A DNA stretch of 64,000 nucleotides from positions 2,063,501-2,127,500 of the forward strand of contig NZ_CP014796.1 of the NCBI RefSeq assembly GCF_001969385.1, given 5' to 3'. The notes under the pieces were generated by a model. It ran no database searches. It was not told the origin of the DNA and saw only the letters and a program-made list of their open reading frames with translations. A program made the position numbers and the translations under genes. The DNA comes from Salipiger profundus (lineage in GTDB: Bacteria > Pseudomonadota > Alphaproteobacteria > Rhodobacterales > Rhodobacteraceae). Positions 57,351 to 62,949 of this stretch are shown here, piece by piece (the first letter of the stretch is position 1; each line of letters starts with the position of its first letter).

Positions 57351-57674
57351 TCAAAGCCAGAAGACTACGGTCGCAGCGAATGCGATTGCTGAGAAGAAGG
57401 TTGGTGGGCAGCGGTCATGACGGGTCGCGACCCTCCCCCAGTCCTTGAGCCTGCCGAACATGATCTCGATCGGGTTGCGATGTTTGTAGCGGCGCTTGTC
57501 CAATGCCCGGCAGGGCATTGCGCAGCAATGTCCCGTGTATGGACGCCCCCGGGGCTGCAAGCGATTTTTTGACTTTGGCAACAGCATTGCGGTCGAGTTC
57601 CTTCGTGTATCCGGCCTCTGGTTGCGACCTTCAATGCCGCGGGCCCTCATGGTGAGTTCGAGGAACAGGTCCAA
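57351..57674 (-). pseudogene. IS5-family transposase, C-terminal fragment
   Basis: The last 50 residues, DKRRYKHRNPIEIMFGRLKD then WGRVATRHDRCPPTFFSAIA, ending VVFWL, are the C-terminus of an IS5/IS427-type DDE transposase, including the catalytic Glu in NPIEIMFGRL. Upstream of that the frame degenerates (RNSTAMLLPKSKNRLQPRGR). It abuts the tniB relic on the left. The remaining sequence to 57791 has no recognisable gene and separates it from the IS110 transposase. Confidence 0.8.
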
Positions 57675-57791
57675 AACGAGAGGCCGTAGTACAAGCTACT
57701 CGGGACATTACTGGTTTTCCCATTCCTGATCTCGTCGACGCTTTGCCATGACCTCCATTCAGAACCACCGCACCCCAGCCTGCCTTCGCGC

Positions 57792-58568
57792 TCAGGCGTT
57801 GGCAGGGGTCTCGTAGACGCCGCCATGAGCCATGATCGCCCAGGCCATCCGCGCCATCTTGTTTGCCAGCGCAACTGCAACCAGCATTTTAGGTTTGCGA
57901 GCCAACATACGGGCCAGCCACGACCCATCTGGCGCGCCGCCGCGTTTTTGCGCGGCTTGGATCGCGGACATTGCACCGATGATCAGCAAACGCCGCAGGT
58001 CGCGCTGACCCATTTTTGATATCTTGCCCAGCCTTGTTTTACCGCCCGTAGAATGCTGGCGTGGTGCCAGCCCGATCCAGGCTGCGAAGTCGCGCCCCTT
58101 GCTGAACATCTCTGGCGGTGCCGCCAGCACGGCAATCGATACCGCCGTCACCGGGCCGATCCCCGGCATGGTCATCAACCTGCGCGCCACATCGTCCTGT
58201 CGGGCAATCTGTCGAAGTTGCCGGGTCAGCGCGTCAATGCGCGCGCTTAGCCCGGCGATGAGATCGAAGAATATTTGGCAAAGGCCGGTGACTTCGGGCG
58301 GCAATCGTTCTCCATTCTCAGCCACAGCCTTTTCCAACCGAGGCAGATGCTGAGGGCCTTTCGGCGCGACAATCCCATGTTCAGCCAGATGCCCTCGCAA
58401 TGCGTTGATCGCCTGGGTACGTTGCCCTGTCAAAAGATCGCGGGTCTTGAGTACCATCGACTGACCTTGTTGCTCGGTTGTCTTGGTCGTCACAAAGCGC
58501 ATGGTCGGTCGGGACGCTGCTTCAGCGATGGCTTCGGCATCATTCGCATCGTTCTTTTGCCGCTTCAC
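57792..58568 (-). pseudogene. IS110-family transposase, C-terminal part (split by the RIT element)
   Basis: 258 codons (GTG at the junction) encode the rest of an IS110-type DEDD transposase: VKRQKNDANDAEAIAEAASR with the two remaining catalytic Asp, then the Transposase_20 domain MTMPGIGPVTAVSIAVLA, FAAWIGLAPRQHSTGGKTRL and ISKMGQRDLRRLLIIGAMSA, which holds the serine thought to attack DNA. No frameshift or stop is present. Joined to the N-terminal part (62673-62419) through one copy of the shared GTGAAG, it gives a 341-codon protein, the normal IS110 size. The interruption is the only damage. Confidence 0.93.
58563..58568 (+). repeat. 6-bp direct repeat (left) flanking the RIT element
   Basis: CTTCAC, read on the minus strand as GTGAAG (Val-Lys of the IS110 transposase). 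The right copy is at 62419-62424. Confidence 0.85.
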
Positions 58569-58597
58569 TTATCATCAGGTGGCCGTAATGCGGAGGA
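58563..58597 (+). repeat. RIT terminal inverted repeat, left
   Basis: The 35 bp starting CTTCACTTATCATCAGG and ending TAATGCGGAGGA are an exact inverted match to 62364-62398. The inner 12-mer TAATGCGGAGGA recurs inverted at 58639-58650. Confidence 0.92.
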
Positions 58598-58638
58598 ACC
58601 TGCGCAGACTTGCTGGTTGCCGGCGTTTTCGCCCACAT

Positions 58639-58650
58639 TCCTCCGCATTA
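58639..58650 (-). repeat. Subterminal copy of the RIT 12-mer
   Basis: TCCTCCGCATTA, the inverse of the TAATGCGGAGGA core at 58586-58597, with 41 bp between. Together they look like paired recombinase-binding arms. The copy lies just beyond the ritC stop codon. Confidence 0.75.
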
Positions 58651-58652
58651 TT

Positions 58653-59657
58653 TCAGAGCGTGTCGAGCCAGGCGAGCAGGCTCGCATCCCGTTTCCATGA
58701 CGGCGGTTGAACTGTCGTTGCCGGCAGGCTGACTTGGTCCAGTGCCTTTCGTTTCGTTTCCAGGTTCGCCTTCGCGTAATGGTTGGTGGTGTCGAGGCTC
58801 ACGTGGCCAAGCCAGCTGCGGATGACCGTGACGTCGACACCGGCCGAGACAAGATGCACGGCGGTGGCGTGGCGGAAGCTGTGCGGCGTCACATGTTTGG
58901 TGTGCAGCAATGGCTCGGTTCCGGCCGCCGCTTTCACATAGCCCGCAAGCTTGAACCGGACGCCCGAGGCACTGAGCGGCTCACCATAGCGGTTCACGAA
59001 CAGCCGCTGGTCCGGTGCTCGCGGTTTTCGTTCCAATAGCGTTTTCAACAGCAGCACGGTTTCTGGCCAGAGCGGACAGATGCGTTCCTTGCGGCCCTTG
59101 CCTGTCAGCCGCACGCAACTTGGGCTCTCGAACCGGATCATATCGGGGCACAGGTCGAGCGCTTCCTGTATTCGTGCGCCGCTGTTGTAAAGGAACGAGA
59201 GCAGCGTGTGATCGCGCATGCCTTCGAGGGTCGAGCGGTCTGGCTGGGCAAGGATCGCTGCCACTTCCGCCGGTTCCAGATAACAGGGTTCCGATACCGG
59301 TGCTCGCTTGACCGGGATGTTGAGGATTTCCGCGCATTGAGCGACCGATGCTGGATCTCTGGTCGCCACGAAGTTGAAGAAGCTGCGGATCGCGGCAAGC
59401 CGGCAGTTGCGCGTGCCGATTGTGCCGCCGCGCTCCTGTTCAGTGTGCCTCAGGAACGCAGCAACGTCGCGGGCAGTCAGATCGGCCAGCGTGATCATCG
59501 CAACCGTCTTTTTGGTGCGCTGCGCAGTGAACCGCAGGAACAGCCGCCAGGTGTCGCGGTAGGATCGGACCGTATGGACGGAGGCGTTCCGCTGCTCAAC
59601 AAGCCACTCATAGAAGAACGCGCGCATCAGGTTCGGGAACGGGTTCGCCTTGTTCAT
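58653..59657 (-). CDS. ritC: Tyrosine recombinase RitC (third of the trio)
   Basis: This 334-residue site-specific tyrosine recombinase has an N-terminal SAM-like core-binding domain (RAFFYEWLVEQRNASVHTVR, residues 11-100) and a catalytic domain. The catalytic set is complete: Arg in LYNSGARIQEALDLCPD, Lys in TGKGRKERICPLW, HxxR in TPHSFRHATAVHLV, His in WLGHVSLDTTNHYAK and the nucleophile Tyr in NHYAK. The start MNKANPFPNLM at 59657 overlaps the ritB stop by 4 bp. The C-terminus ends 3 bp from the 12-mer core repeat. All three recombinases presumably act together for excision and integration. Confidence 0.9.
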   Translation of the reverse strand: MNKANPFPNLMRAFFYEWLVEQRNASVHTVRSYRDTWRLFLRFTAQRTKKTVAMITLADLTARDVAAFLRHTEQERGGTIGTRNCRLAAIRSFFNFVATRDPASVAQCAEILNIPVKRAPVSEPCYLEPAEVAAILAQPDRSTLEGMRDHTLLSFLYNSGARIQEALDLCPDMIRFESPSCVRLTGKGRKERICPLWPETVLLLKTLLERKPRAPDQRLFVNRYGEPLSASGVRFKLAGYVKAAAGTEPLLHTKHVTPHSFRHATAVHLVSAGVDVTVIRSWLGHVSLDTTNHYAKANLETKRKALDQVSLPATTVQPPSWKRDASLLAWLDTL

Positions 59658-61024
59658 GACCTCACCCCCTGCCCAAGGTCGAGGCATGGTGCTCCCACGG
59701 CTCTGAACCGTTCGCTGGCGTGATGCAGAAGATCCTGCGTGACGGTGATGTAGACCAGGGTGGAATTGATATCCCGATGCCCGAGGTAAGTCGCGAGGAA
59801 CGGCAGCCGGTCCTGCGGATTGATGCCCGCTTTGTACCATTCCAAGATGCGGTTCACGACCATCGAGTGGCGCAGATCGTGAACGCGCGGCCCGGTTCGC
59901 CCTTGCAGTGGCTTGAACCCGGCGCGCCGTGTGACGTTAGTGAGCAGCCAGGTGATCATTTCCGGCGTGTAGCGGCGGGTGCGGCCCTGCTCGTGCCAGA
60001 ACAGACCGGCACATGGATCCTGCGATGCGCCGGCACGGCGCCGGGCTTTGATATAGGCTCGAAGCTCGACCACCACGCTGGCGGGCAGCGGCAGGATCCT
60101 GGTTTTGAAGAACTTCGTTTGGCGAACCGTGATCGTACCGCTCTGGAGATTGATGTCGCCAAGATCGAGACGGGCAAGCTCGCCCCGCCGCAAGCCTGCA
60201 CAATAGGCCAGCACCAGCATGGTGTAGATCGTCAGCGGGCGAAGTGGTGACCGTGGTGAGGGGAAGGAACGAGCGACGTCGAGCATCCGTCGTATATCGG
60301 CAGGCGAGTAGATGTGGGGCTTGCGCCATTGCTTGACCACGTCCTTCTGCGGTCGCGGGTCCGGCCTGCGTGATGGGATCGATGGGTCCCGGTGACGGAA
60401 GATTTTCGTCAGGGTGCGCCTGAGATTTTCACATTCGACGGCGTGATTGCGCGTGGATTTCGCCGCCGCCCAGTGTGTGAGCATCACCCCGACCGGCTGC
60501 TCCTGGAGCGCCGGGTTCAGCTGCAGGAACTGGTCAAATCTCAACAACCGGGCAGACTGCGAAGTGTATTTGTACCCCCGGTTCCGCATCAGCGCGACGT
60601 GCTCAGCCAAAACCTCTCCCAGCACGCTGCCGAACGGCCGGGGCCGACGCAACTCGGCAAGGGCCTTTTCCGGATCGTGCGATGCCAGAGCGCGCCAGAC
60701 TGGCATGCACTGCTTGATACTGCATGCTTCGCGCAGGGTGGTGACGGGATTGCGCTCGATCGCCTCGGTAATCAGAAGGTGATCGAGGAACCTGTCAACG
60801 ATGCGGGTGCGGTGCAGCAGCGTAGTCGCTGCCCAGCATTCAGCCGATACCCGCAGCCACGCGACCAGCACATCCTGACCAAGTTCGCTGTGATGCTCGG
60901 CGACGTCCTGGAAGCCGTGCAAGACCTGCCGGTAGCAGGTTCGACTTTTCATGCTGCGCAGACCAAGGCCGGTGAGATGGTGGTCAATGATCGTGCGATC
61001 GGGATCGGGCCAGCGAGCGGTCAT
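59654..61024 (-). CDS. ritB: Tyrosine recombinase RitB (second of the trio)
   Basis: This 456-residue recombinase is the longest of the three, with a long N-terminal region (about 1-240) rich in Arg and Trp before the catalytic domain. Catalytic residues are Arg in AYCAGLRRGELARLDL, Lys in RQTKFFKTRILPL, HxxR in RVHDLRHSMVVNRIL, His in TYLGHRDINSTLVYI and Tyr in LVYIT. All are intact. ATGA overlaps with ritA upstream and ritC downstream imply coupled translation in a fixed ratio. The middle RIT protein is usually the most divergent of the trio, consistent with its unusual N-terminus. Confidence 0.9.
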   Translation of the reverse strand: MTARWPDPDRTIIDHHLTGLGLRSMKSRTCYRQVLHGFQDVAEHHSELGQDVLVAWLRVSAECWAATTLLHRTRIVDRFLDHLLITEAIERNPVTTLREACSIKQCMPVWRALASHDPEKALAELRRPRPFGSVLGEVLAEHVALMRNRGYKYTSQSARLLRFDQFLQLNPALQEQPVGVMLTHWAAAKSTRNHAVECENLRRTLTKIFRHRDPSIPSRRPDPRPQKDVVKQWRKPHIYSPADIRRMLDVARSFPSPRSPLRPLTIYTMLVLAYCAGLRRGELARLDLGDINLQSGTITVRQTKFFKTRILPLPASVVVELRAYIKARRRAGASQDPCAGLFWHEQGRTRRYTPEMITWLLTNVTRRAGFKPLQGRTGPRVHDLRHSMVVNRILEWYKAGINPQDRLPFLATYLGHRDINSTLVYITVTQDLLHHASERFRAVGAPCLDLGQGVRS

Positions 61025-62253
61025 GCCAGCCCCTCCGCACCCGGCACATCAAGCGCAATGGCCCTGAGATCCTCGGTGGCAAGCTTGAGGTAGGGGGCCG
61101 TCGACGCGGTTGAGCGATGCCCCAAAAGGTCGCCGATGACTTTTTGCGGAACTGACGTGCGCAGCATCTCGACCGCACGCGCATGGCGGAAGATATGCGG
61201 CCCGCATTTGCCTGGCGGCTTGATGCCGGCATCGCAGAGCCGCCGTCGAACCAGACTGTATAGCTTCTCGAGCTTGCGATAGGGCGCGCGCGTGCGGATG
61301 AAGACTTCCCTGGCAGCGGTCGCTGGCCGTCCGGAACGCAGATAGGTGAGAACGGCCTCGCCCGCAGGCACCATCAGGGGCAGGAACGAGCAGGCTCCCG
61401 TTTTGCTGTGACGGACACGGATGGTTTCGCTCCGCCAGTCGATGTCCTCAATCCGCAGATTGCGGATTTCTCCAGACCGCAGCCCATAGGTTGCAAGGAG
61501 TTGCAAGATTGCGTAGTCCCGCAGCCCCGCCGGTGTCCTGTCCGCCCTCGCGCTTTCCAGTACCGCGGCGATCTGGTCCCGTTCCAGGATCGAGGGTACA
61601 CCTTCATAGGCGTAGAGCAACGGCGCGATGATGTGCGGCGACAGGTCGGTCGCAATGTGGCCCGCCCTATAGAGGTGACGCAGCAGCGAACGAAGCCGCT
61701 CCGCAACAGATTTCAGCGAGCTGCGCGTCAGCTTCAATGCACGCAGGTCCATATAGCGGTCGGTGTCGTCGATACTTAGATCCATCAGACCTTCGGCACC
61801 GCATCGTTCGAGGTGCCAGGCCAGGAAGTGTCGGGCTTCCCACAGGAGCGCATGGATGCTGGGCCGGGCAAGGCCACGCTCATCGAGAAGCCAGGCCTCG
61901 TACTCGTTACAGATCGCAAATCGCAACGCGTCGGCCGCACAGGCCGCATTTGTAGCCGGTGGCCATCGGCCCTGCACAAGCCGCAGCAGCGCGTGAATAC
62001 CCGCGCAGGGAATTTGGTGCCAGCGCGGACCAGGAAGGCGGCCGTGACGGCGCTGGAACAGCGCGACCGCTTCGCGCAGGTATTGCTCCACTTGGGCTTC
62101 GGTTACATCTGCGACCGGGATGTTCCGCTGCGCAAGATGGTCAAGAAAGCCGCGCGCGTAGGCGCAGTAATTCCTGACCACCACCGGGCTGTATCCTTGG
62201 CTGGTCAGTACGGTTTCGAGTTCGGTGATTACTTGGCGATCGGCTTTTGTCAT
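61021..62253 (-). CDS. ritA: Tyrosine recombinase RitA (first of the trio)
   Basis: This 410-residue site-specific recombinase is promoter-proximal in the RIT operon. Its N-terminal core-binding region (ELETVLTSQGYSPVVVRNYC, residues 10-200) leads to a complete catalytic set: Arg in LATYGLRSGEIRNLRIED, Lys in RHSKTGACSFLPL, HxxR in GPHIFRHARAVEMLR, His in LLGHRSTASTAPYLK and Tyr in APYLK. The stop overlaps the ritB start by 4 bp. A promoter should lie in the 110 bp between its start and the right inverted repeat, but none stands out. Confidence 0.9.
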   Translation of the reverse strand: MTKADRQVITELETVLTSQGYSPVVVRNYCAYARGFLDHLAQRNIPVADVTEAQVEQYLREAVALFQRRHGRLPGPRWHQIPCAGIHALLRLVQGRWPPATNAACAADALRFAICNEYEAWLLDERGLARPSIHALLWEARHFLAWHLERCGAEGLMDLSIDDTDRYMDLRALKLTRSSLKSVAERLRSLLRHLYRAGHIATDLSPHIIAPLLYAYEGVPSILERDQIAAVLESARADRTPAGLRDYAILQLLATYGLRSGEIRNLRIEDIDWRSETIRVRHSKTGACSFLPLMVPAGEAVLTYLRSGRPATAAREVFIRTRAPYRKLEKLYSLVRRRLCDAGIKPPGKCGPHIFRHARAVEMLRTSVPQKVIGDLLGHRSTASTAPYLKLATEDLRAIALDVPGAEGLA

Positions 62254-62300
62254 CGCTGGCTCCTCCGCTGGTCAAACAACCGCAGAGGTTCGGCCGAAAA

Positions 62301-62310
62301 TAATGCGGAG
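62301..62310 (+). repeat. Subterminal copy of the RIT core sequence, right side
   Basis: TAATGCGGAG is followed by C instead of GA and faces the inverted TCCTCCGCATTA in the right terminal repeat 53 bp away. A weaker AAATGCGGGG occurs at about 62332. It mirrors the paired arms at the left end but is less perfect. Confidence 0.6.
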
Positions 62311-62363
62311 CAAAGCCGTCGATTGGCGCGGAAATGCGGGGAATTCATGCGCCTGTCCCACAG

Positions 62364-62398
62364 TCCTCCGCATTACGGCCACCTGATGATAAGTGAAG
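62364..62398 (-). repeat. RIT terminal inverted repeat, right
   Basis: Exact inverted copy of the left 35-bp repeat. Unlike the left side it is followed by another 20 bp before the IS110 junction. Confidence 0.92.
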
Positions 62399-62424
62399 TA
62401 ATGGAGAGGTGATCATTACTTCAC
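62393..62424. repeat. 11-bp palindrome at the right RIT junction
   Basis: GTGAAGTAATG and CATTACTTCAC flank the 10-bp GAGAGGTGAT. The outer hexamers are the inverted forms of the 6-bp CTTCAC flanking repeat, so the element carries a copy of the target hexamer next to its own end. No counterpart exists at the left end. Confidence 0.85.
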
Positions 62425-62673
62425 ATAGGGTTTGACGTATTGCGGGGCGATGAGCCTGACATCGTGGCCAAGTCTGGAAAGCTCCCGGCTCCAGTGATGC
62501 GCACCCGCGCAAGCCTCCAAAGCGATGGTGCAAGGCTCAATCTGACCGAAAAACTCTAGCACCCGCCCTCGCGGCAACGCCTTGCTAAAGACCTTAGATC
62601 CATTTGCCGCCGCGCCATGCGCGTGAAACGAACTCTTGGCAATATCCAGCCCTACAATGCTAACCTTCTCCAT
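62416..62673 (-). pseudogene. IS110-family transposase, N-terminal part (split by the RIT element)
   Basis: 85 codons: MEKVSIVGLDIAKSSFHAHG with the first catalytic Asp, ALEACAGAHHWSRELSRLGH with the Glu, and LIAPQYVKPYVK, after which the RIT sequence supplies a TAA. This is the RuvC-like DEDD half of an IS110 transposase and is undamaged up to the junction. The C-terminal part continues at 58562-57792. Upstream (62674 onward) should lie the IS110 non-coding left end. Confidence 0.93.
62419..62424 (+). repeat. 6-bp direct repeat (right) flanking the RIT element
   Basis: CTTCAC, direct copy of 58563-58568. To its right the IS110 reading frame resumes (Tyr-Val-Lys on the minus strand). Confidence 0.85.
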
Positions 62674-62949
62674 GGACGCTTCCTCCTCGTAGCGAATTTC
62701 GACACCGCTACCTTGGCACAGCGATGCCGTGAGGGGGCGTCCACACCATCAAGAGGGGTACCGGACGGGCGTCGTCCGTTTCTTCCGGCCCGGGATGCAA
62801 GGACGTATCTTCTTGTCCTGCAAGGCTTCCCTGATCTCAAGTCGCCAGCCAAGGTGATGTCAGGCTGGTGCGGGCCATCTGTCAGACGGCGCGCAACCTT
62901 GTTTCCTCATGCGGTGTGAGGGACGTCCAGGTTCCTTGACCCCGAATGC
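62674..62949 (-). other. Non-coding sequence upstream of the IS110 transposase (candidate bridge-RNA region)
   Basis: No gene is supported in these 276 bp. IS110-group elements transcribe a bridge (seek) RNA from the non-coding end upstream of the transposase, and this is where it should lie. Several short GC-rich inverted pairs can be picked out (for example GGACGGGCGTCGTCC near 62763-62777), but I cannot fix the element end or fold the RNA by eye. Confidence 0.35.

Follow-up and report, generated by a model that had tools for sequence, protein, structure and literature searches.

What does it mean when one mobile element is found inside another? The stretch of Salipiger profundus DNA analyzed here (64,000 nucleotides of contig NZ_CP014796.1, positions 2,063,501 to 2,127,500; "the window") raises this question at positions 58563-62424, where a RIT element, three tyrosine-recombinase genes (ritA-ritB-ritC) between 35-bp perfect inverted repeats, interrupts a 341-codon IS110 transposase gene. 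Did the RIT land there by accident, or does it seek out this site? When the window's own genome (5.42 Mb in 9 contigs) was searched at the DNA level, 14 full RIT copies came up, the window copy included; judged by their junctions, all 14 sit in IS110 transposase genes at the homologous two codons. An earlier note on this DNA had called the nesting unusual; with 14 of 14 copies, and relatives as well, at the same IS110 codons, that judgment does not hold. We think it probable that the element belongs to a RIT clade that homes into IS110-family transposase genes, and that a circle with two inverted crossover sites integrates via either of them, exchanging a hexamer. Based on these sequences, the nesting would be a targeting rule of the clade and not chance.

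The repeated same-site insertion suggests how a poorly understood class of elements chooses its target and moves. According to a 2023 paper (PMC10214605), it had not been tested how specific RITs are for their targets, whether an empty site forms, or how the elements move, and its authors knew of no laboratory reproduction of RIT transposition. A genome holding 14 near-identical copies with defined ends, a two-codon target, and hexamer fingerprints makes all three questions directly testable. The case would also show one mobile element specializing on the codons next to another's active-site residues, with selection on the target protein presumably keeping the target available.

The trio, its host gene, and its sister copies

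The interrupted IS110 element, which we call IS-A, is 1373 bp long without the RIT, and its gene can be put back together: joining the two coding halves (Table 1) via one copy of the hexamer gives a stop-free frame of 341 codons with IS110 motifs, as expected from the clean split that the earlier note described. It matches PF01548 and PF02371 in the C-terminal half, as well as NF033542, with a DEDD RuvC-like domain and a Tnp domain in one frame. Because the insertion splits this gene, the IS110 transposase should be disabled. The split point is Val84-Lys85, directly ahead of ..RQKNDANDAEA, and just beyond the insertion stand D90 and D93. In IS621, the active-site residues D102 and D105 are likewise three positions apart, and mutating them abolished recombination (PMC11208158); the shared spacing, together with the family match, leads us to infer that the two pairs are equivalent. 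The closest uninterrupted relative of IS-A that was found (L107; loci are cited by such numbers) is 74% identical in amino acids and has a 344-aa frame with GTGAAG at exactly the Val-Lys codons, where the earlier note had said an intact relative should carry it. No near-identical copy of the IS-A C-terminal half was matched on plasmids, and Rfam returned nothing relevant at the locus, the IS110 guide RNA not being identified by it.

Table 1. Features of the RIT insertion and the IS110 element around it (window coordinates)
Feature	Position	Strand	Remarks
C-terminal part of IS110 element IS-A, core included	57527..58568	-	outer edge common to copies extending beyond
C-terminal coding half of IS110 transposase	57792..58562	-	PF02371, NF033542
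Core hexamer c, inverted-repeat/C-half junction	58563..58568		CTTCAC; GTGAAG on coding strand
Terminal inverted repeat, ritC side	58563..58597		35 bp, core included
ritC	58653..59657	-	tyrosine recombinase, 334 aa; open reading frame, PF00589, alignment with Xer-type chains
ritB	59654..61024	-	tyrosine recombinase, 456 aa; open reading frame, PF00589, alignment with Xer-type chains
ritA	61021..62253	-	tyrosine recombinase, 410 aa; open reading frame, PF00589, alignment with Xer-type chains
Terminal inverted repeat, ritA side	62364..62398		35 bp, core included
Core hexamer b, inverted-repeat/spacer junction	62393..62398		GTGAAG
20-bp spacer, part of mobile unit	62399..62418		TAATGGAGAGGTGATCATTA; palindromic arms
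Core hexamer a, spacer/N-half junction	62419..62424		CTTCAC; GTGAAG on coding strand
N-terminal coding half of IS110 transposase	62419..62673	-	85 codons, ending ..QYVKPYVK
N-terminal part of IS110 element	62419..62755	-	outer edge common to 8 copies

As for the mover itself, the three genes lie in the order A-B-C with a 4-bp overlap at each junction, all three products match the tyrosine-recombinase catalytic domain PF00589, and the catalytic residues R, K, HxxR, GH, and Y can be read by eye in each when aligned with Xer-type chains. The inverted repeats, 35 nt and 100% complementary, compare with the roughly 28 to 34 bp of RIT elements. The trio, the exact repeats, the CTTCAC direct repeats, and the 6-bp crossover unit reported by the earlier note are confirmed. 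PMC8138268 gives two core-binding domains in RitA and an extra C-terminal helix in RitC as RIT features; RitA here has two SAM-like matches, at residues 11 to 60 (below the curated cut-off) and 116 to 197 (above it), both weak. The gene set IntA/Tfp/IntB/Srap of the SE elements (strand-biased circularizing integrative elements) is absent: the window element consists of three genes, all PF00589 tyrosine recombinases.

How did one genome come to hold 14 copies? Eleven, counting the window copy, are letter-identical to it over 3836 bp; two others differ in one core base, and one (L016) differs by one base in length. The inverted repeats stop at the identical base in all 14, in line with the earlier note's expectation that the ends of other copies would coincide, and the site structure is complete in 13, L020 being rearranged and without its outer spacer unit. 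Four IS110 types are occupied, with C-terminal halves 100%, 57%, 52%, and 40% identical in amino acids to the window's. Relative to the target, 9 of 13 copies point one way and 4 the other, both orientations occurring in IS-A and in the 57% type. By count, four types and both orientations in two of them need at least six separate entries.

A simpler history would be a single chance entry into an IS110, after which the IS110::RIT composite was multiplied by IS110 transposition in trans. IS-A on its own would fit this well. In a protein search of the genome, every IS-A copy found carries the RIT, and the IS-A parts among the 14 copies, which lie at different places, are letter-identical (N-terminal parts, 8/8 over 337 bp; C-terminal parts, 9/9 over 1042 bp, one of them over 1005), so that IS110 movement with a passenger could account for some of the copies; what share moved in which way cannot be told from the sequences. 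A single entry does not, however, account for three further IS110 types (57%, 52%, and 40% identity) entered at the same codons, for both orientations within two types, or for the use of the same site in other bacteria, and the same protein search found no uninterrupted copy of the four occupied types able to supply the transposase. We consider this history unlikely. The remaining IS110-like matches in the genome are at most 33% identical over at least 142 residues or are short pieces of at most 91 residues at 38 to 59%; in L097 and L098, the two with a sensible alignment there, the site codes for LK amid another sequence. The letter-identical IS-A parts also make the insertions look recent, as the earlier note had proposed.

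Could the copies and their hybrids instead be artifacts of assembling a repeat? Contig C9 is merely 11.2 kb long and holds two copies, and around the RIT copies L009+ and L013, two IS110 types are combined into reciprocal hybrids, pointing to recombination between copies or to an assembly join. Yet within the fetched stretches the flanks differ from copy to copy: the N-side surroundings of the eight IS-A N-terminal parts are all different, as are the C-side surroundings of the seven of nine C-terminal parts not cut by a contig end (a short motif recurs in four of the seven), and pairwise matches end where the IS ends. The same structure also recurs in assemblies of other species, and we give the artifact explanation hardly any credence. 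Two RITs, L025 flanked by an N-terminal half on each side and L020 flanked on each side by C-terminal-half sequence (11 bp at one of them) and lacking a spacer, are what exchange between oppositely oriented copies is expected to leave.

A core-spacer-core attachment site

Where does the mobile unit end? The earlier note described an element flanked by direct repeats. The locus is better described as inverted repeat, core, 20-bp spacer, and core; the note had missed half of the attachment structure, namely, the palindromic-armed spacer and the inverted third core. At the spacer end, the order is inverted repeat, core, spacer (arms TWATG and CATWA), inverted core, and target N-terminal half; at the other end, the inverted repeat and core are followed directly by the target C-terminal half. 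Inverted arms surround each core of the joint (GATWA-N6-TWATG), the layout to be expected of a tyrosine-recombinase crossover site. By sequence, the mobile unit comprises inverted repeat, core, spacer, core, and inverted repeat; it would measure 3856 bp if circular, and it occurs in either orientation.

Junctions were surveyed in 13 stretches of the window genome (14 copies), 60 named relatives, and 12 plasmid loci, with entry limited to loci with a recognizable ritC end. Both sides were read in 47 elements (13 own, 34 others), leaving aside 15 without a readable ritA end, 7 at a contig edge, and 3 odd ones (L020, L025, and L049). The spacer stands on the N-half side in all 34 others, 10 of which come from one genome, Sphingobium DEHP117. 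Their targets are IS110 (13), ardC (16), and strawberry notch (4), with the pattern on both sides, plus L065, with an ardC N-terminal half and a register one base off at its other (C-half) end. With respect to the element, the spacer is found on the ritA side in 9 own and 13 other elements and on the ritC side in 4 own and 21 others. Its orientation follows that of the element in 13/13 own copies, as expected if a circle can enter via either core; inverting the element alone in place would not give this result. Some arms are off by one base.

These observations are consistent with a mechanism in which the element circularizes, the circle joint would carry two inverted crossover sites with GATWA-N6-TWATG arms, and RitA, RitB, and RitC would together carry out a 6-bp crossover between one or the other site and the target. 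The inverted-repeat side would receive the hexamer of the target and the spacer side that of the circle, as in SE and Tn554 elements. The element would track codons that its target families cannot easily change.

Might the spacer with its two cores lie outside the mobile unit, as a preexisting landing pad or the scar of an earlier excision? Arms and inverted cores do resemble a docking site, and 3 of 76 spacer-like sequences in the fetched DNA, all in relatives, adjoin no element end. In the window genome, though, no free spacer unit was found, since each of the 13 matches to the 32-bp core-spacer-core unit (at most 3 mismatches) directly adjoins the end of a RIT; the site is spacer-free in uninterrupted IS110 relatives, and the two orphans with a recognizable target half (L049 and L140) are RIT remnants split by another element. 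A landing pad seems very unlikely to us. Slightly less so, though still improbable, is integration via a folded single strand, as at integron attC sites: as single-stranded DNA, the 32-bp unit could form a hairpin with an 11-bp stem (61-nt piece, z = -4.0; 0 of 200 shuffles as good), yet the cores beside the spacer in the ardC group are not complementary (GCCAGG and CGCCAG), and six sites were nonetheless entered in one genome.

Hexamers, targets, and descent

If a hexamer is exchanged at each entry, do the two ends remember different places? GTGAAG is the hexamer throughout the window genome, the exception being the 57% IS110 type, whose two oppositely oriented copies have GTTAAG solely on the repeat/C-half side. 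GTTAAG is a natural codon pair at this site in the uninterrupted IS110 genes L118, L119, and L120, and it may well be the original hexamer of the 57% type; a RIT-free copy of that type was not found, the closest outside this genome in the family sample being L161 (79% DNA identity; hexamer GTCAAG). Among the readable relatives, the two outer hexamers are unequal in 27 of 34 (one of the 27, L065, being read one base out of register), which implies that core identity is not required. The identical 6-bp direct repeats of the window are there because the hexamers of element and target match; where the ends differ, one hexamer appears to be the target's and the other to travel with the element.

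Sphingobium DEHP117, with 11 full and 2 partial RIT copies, offers six different readable ardC sites. At four of them, the spacer-side CTGGCG is constant and the repeat side varies by site (CTCGAG, CTTCGC, GCCGAA, and CTTCAG); at a fifth, entered the opposite way, the spacer side carries the element's other hexamer, GCCAGG, and the repeat side carries CTGGAG. The end rule of SE and Tn554 elements thus fits 5 of the 6 sites, as well as both copies in the 57% IS110 type, with one site opposite. Inside L152 stands CTCGAG, which is also what the L149 site has on its repeat side, as if brought along from there, though a single match may be chance. From plasmids, four uninterrupted ardC sites were available, all in short pieces of 140 to 148 aa and not full genes.

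How are the targets chosen? The IS110 attachment site is the stretch coding for YVKPxVK|RQKNDA.DA, the core being the two codons just upstream of two conserved aspartates. Sister lineages likewise enter conserved codons, in ardC or strawberry-notch genes. The ArdC target was confirmed by Pfam on two flanks, and the strawberry-notch target is given by record annotation beside L138 and L139 and by the protein motifs that four elements have in common at their junctions. We know of no relationship among IS110, ardC, and strawberry-notch proteins. Their sites nonetheless have in common TAY at -15 to -13 and T at -3 of the core (16, 13, and 4 sites compared), a hint that DNA letters are recognized and not just the same gene.

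A quick RitA-B-C tree was built from 55 of the 68 loci with at least one long protein match, i.e., those with at least two; target labels were corrected by hand (L033, L036, L061, L068, L070, and L075, automatically labeled IS110, are ardC loci, and L020, L026, and L049 had no automatic label), some from one flank only, and 15 of the 55 rows have no assigned target. The 15 rows known to target IS110 all belong to a single clade (21 rows, 6 unassigned; support by the Shimodaira-Hasegawa-like approximate likelihood-ratio test [SH-aLRT], 98), sister to an ardC clade (26 rows, 8 unassigned; SH-aLRT, 93), and the four strawberry-notch rows form another (SH-aLRT, 100). Three target changes explain the four target classes on the tree. 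Further ardC rows branch deeper, which, with the root at midpoint, is only suggestive of ardC as the older target. The nearest named relative of the window RIT is from Leisingera (95%), and the 60 closer named relatives were taken from a scan of GTDB species genomes. At E <= 1e-25, RitB relatives were found in 1 of 197 other genomes of the family sample (30% identity; at most 8 candidates scored per genome) and in 5 of 397 of the phylum sample (30 to 35%; at most 4 candidates), the patchy distribution expected for a mobile element.

Several observations, besides the identical IS-A copies and the orphan spacers discussed above, count against homing by a double-core circle. The circle junction was found in none of the 170 fetched sequences, and one degenerate pattern had no matches in viral contigs. 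A spacer is missing from both ends of L020 and L049 and present at both ends of L025, the DEHP117 copy L157 has a 19-bp spacer, and in L022 of Leisingera the spacer runs opposite to its direction in the window genome, so that spacer or element can also invert in place. The sixth DEHP117 site, L148, is reversed: its spacer side holds CTCGCC, which also occurs in the uninterrupted ardC piece L167, and its repeat side holds the element's GCCAGG. Finally, the divergent RITs L142 and L143 lie in other transposase genes (integrase-core matches) without the TAY signal. In L143, the core (codons AE) is followed by AAQVDFG, and its N-terminal half matched no Pfam family; in L142, the spacer-side half ends ..ALAFFGGVPE. 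We take these host genes to be istA of IS21, in which QVDFG presumably includes a catalytic aspartate.

Can the homing of this clade into IS110 be generalized? RITs may be homing transposons, each lineage tracking the DNA of a conserved motif in a multicopy or plasmid-borne gene (IS110, ardC, strawberry notch, or other transposases), with a double-core site, SE-like hexamer copying, a TAY-N9-T(-3) signal shared by three unrelated target families, and target changes that mark deep branches. We hold this broader proposal tentatively, at slightly less than even confidence.

Known systems and the surrounding nest

RIT elements themselves are already known. Van Houdt et al. (2012; PMC3414803) described ritA-ritB-ritC trios of about 3.5 kb, with identical copies, and insertions in radC and in the transposase gene of a Tn6049-related transposon; an insertion in an IS66-family tnpA is described in PMC2864759. 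The window element resembles the former in its three overlapping tyrosine-recombinase genes and terminal inverted repeat (about 3.5 kb there versus 3.8 kb here). PMC3414803 gives a 28- to 29-bp inverted repeat, an overlapping palindrome, variable ends, no defined target, and nothing convincing as recombinase binding sites; to this, the present analysis adds the core-spacer-core site, target codons in IS110 and ardC, and a link of clade with target. Among literature titles, none on RIT targeting of IS110 or ardC was found, which does not settle novelty in print. In Tn554, TnpC is not a tyrosine recombinase, terminal inverted repeats are lacking, and the target differs from that of RITs. Tn554-related transposons are alike in their three-gene transposition module and in a 6-bp footprint carried from donor to new site (PMC10214605). 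SE elements, too, exchange a hexamer, with the target's at one end and the carried one at the other, a rule that the same source reports for Tn554; they differ in having IntA, Tfp, IntB, Srap, and possibly resistance genes, and the accessible text of that source mentions neither a 20-bp spacer nor long inverted repeats. The bridge-RNA transposons of the IS110 family (PMC11208158) enter the picture as the family of the interrupted gene: here, IS110 is the target and not the mover.

Further observations concern the surroundings. The short motif beside IS-A is GCAATGCCCTGCCGG-like and adjoins four of the seven readable C-ends (L012, L013, L014, and L020); it is possibly the target of the IS110 guide RNA. 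The IS110 element is itself apparently inserted in a DDE transposase gene (57380-57526 plus 62756-62900; junctions ..IRPCIPGRKKRTTPVRY / DKRRYKHRNPIEIMFGRLKDW..), making a three-level nest. This outermost gene we take to be IS5-like; its DDE_Tnp_1_2 match is weak, below the cut-off. In L049 (7945-10577) and L140 (4889-7455), from two species and in opposite orientations, an element of about 2.5 kb, 84% identical between the two, lies between RIT repeat and spacer; the L140 copy is annotated with a tyrosine recombinase and an IS91-family transposase. At L138, on a Sphingobium plasmid, two tyrosine-recombinase trios stand side by side, the second cut by the edge of the fetched stretch.

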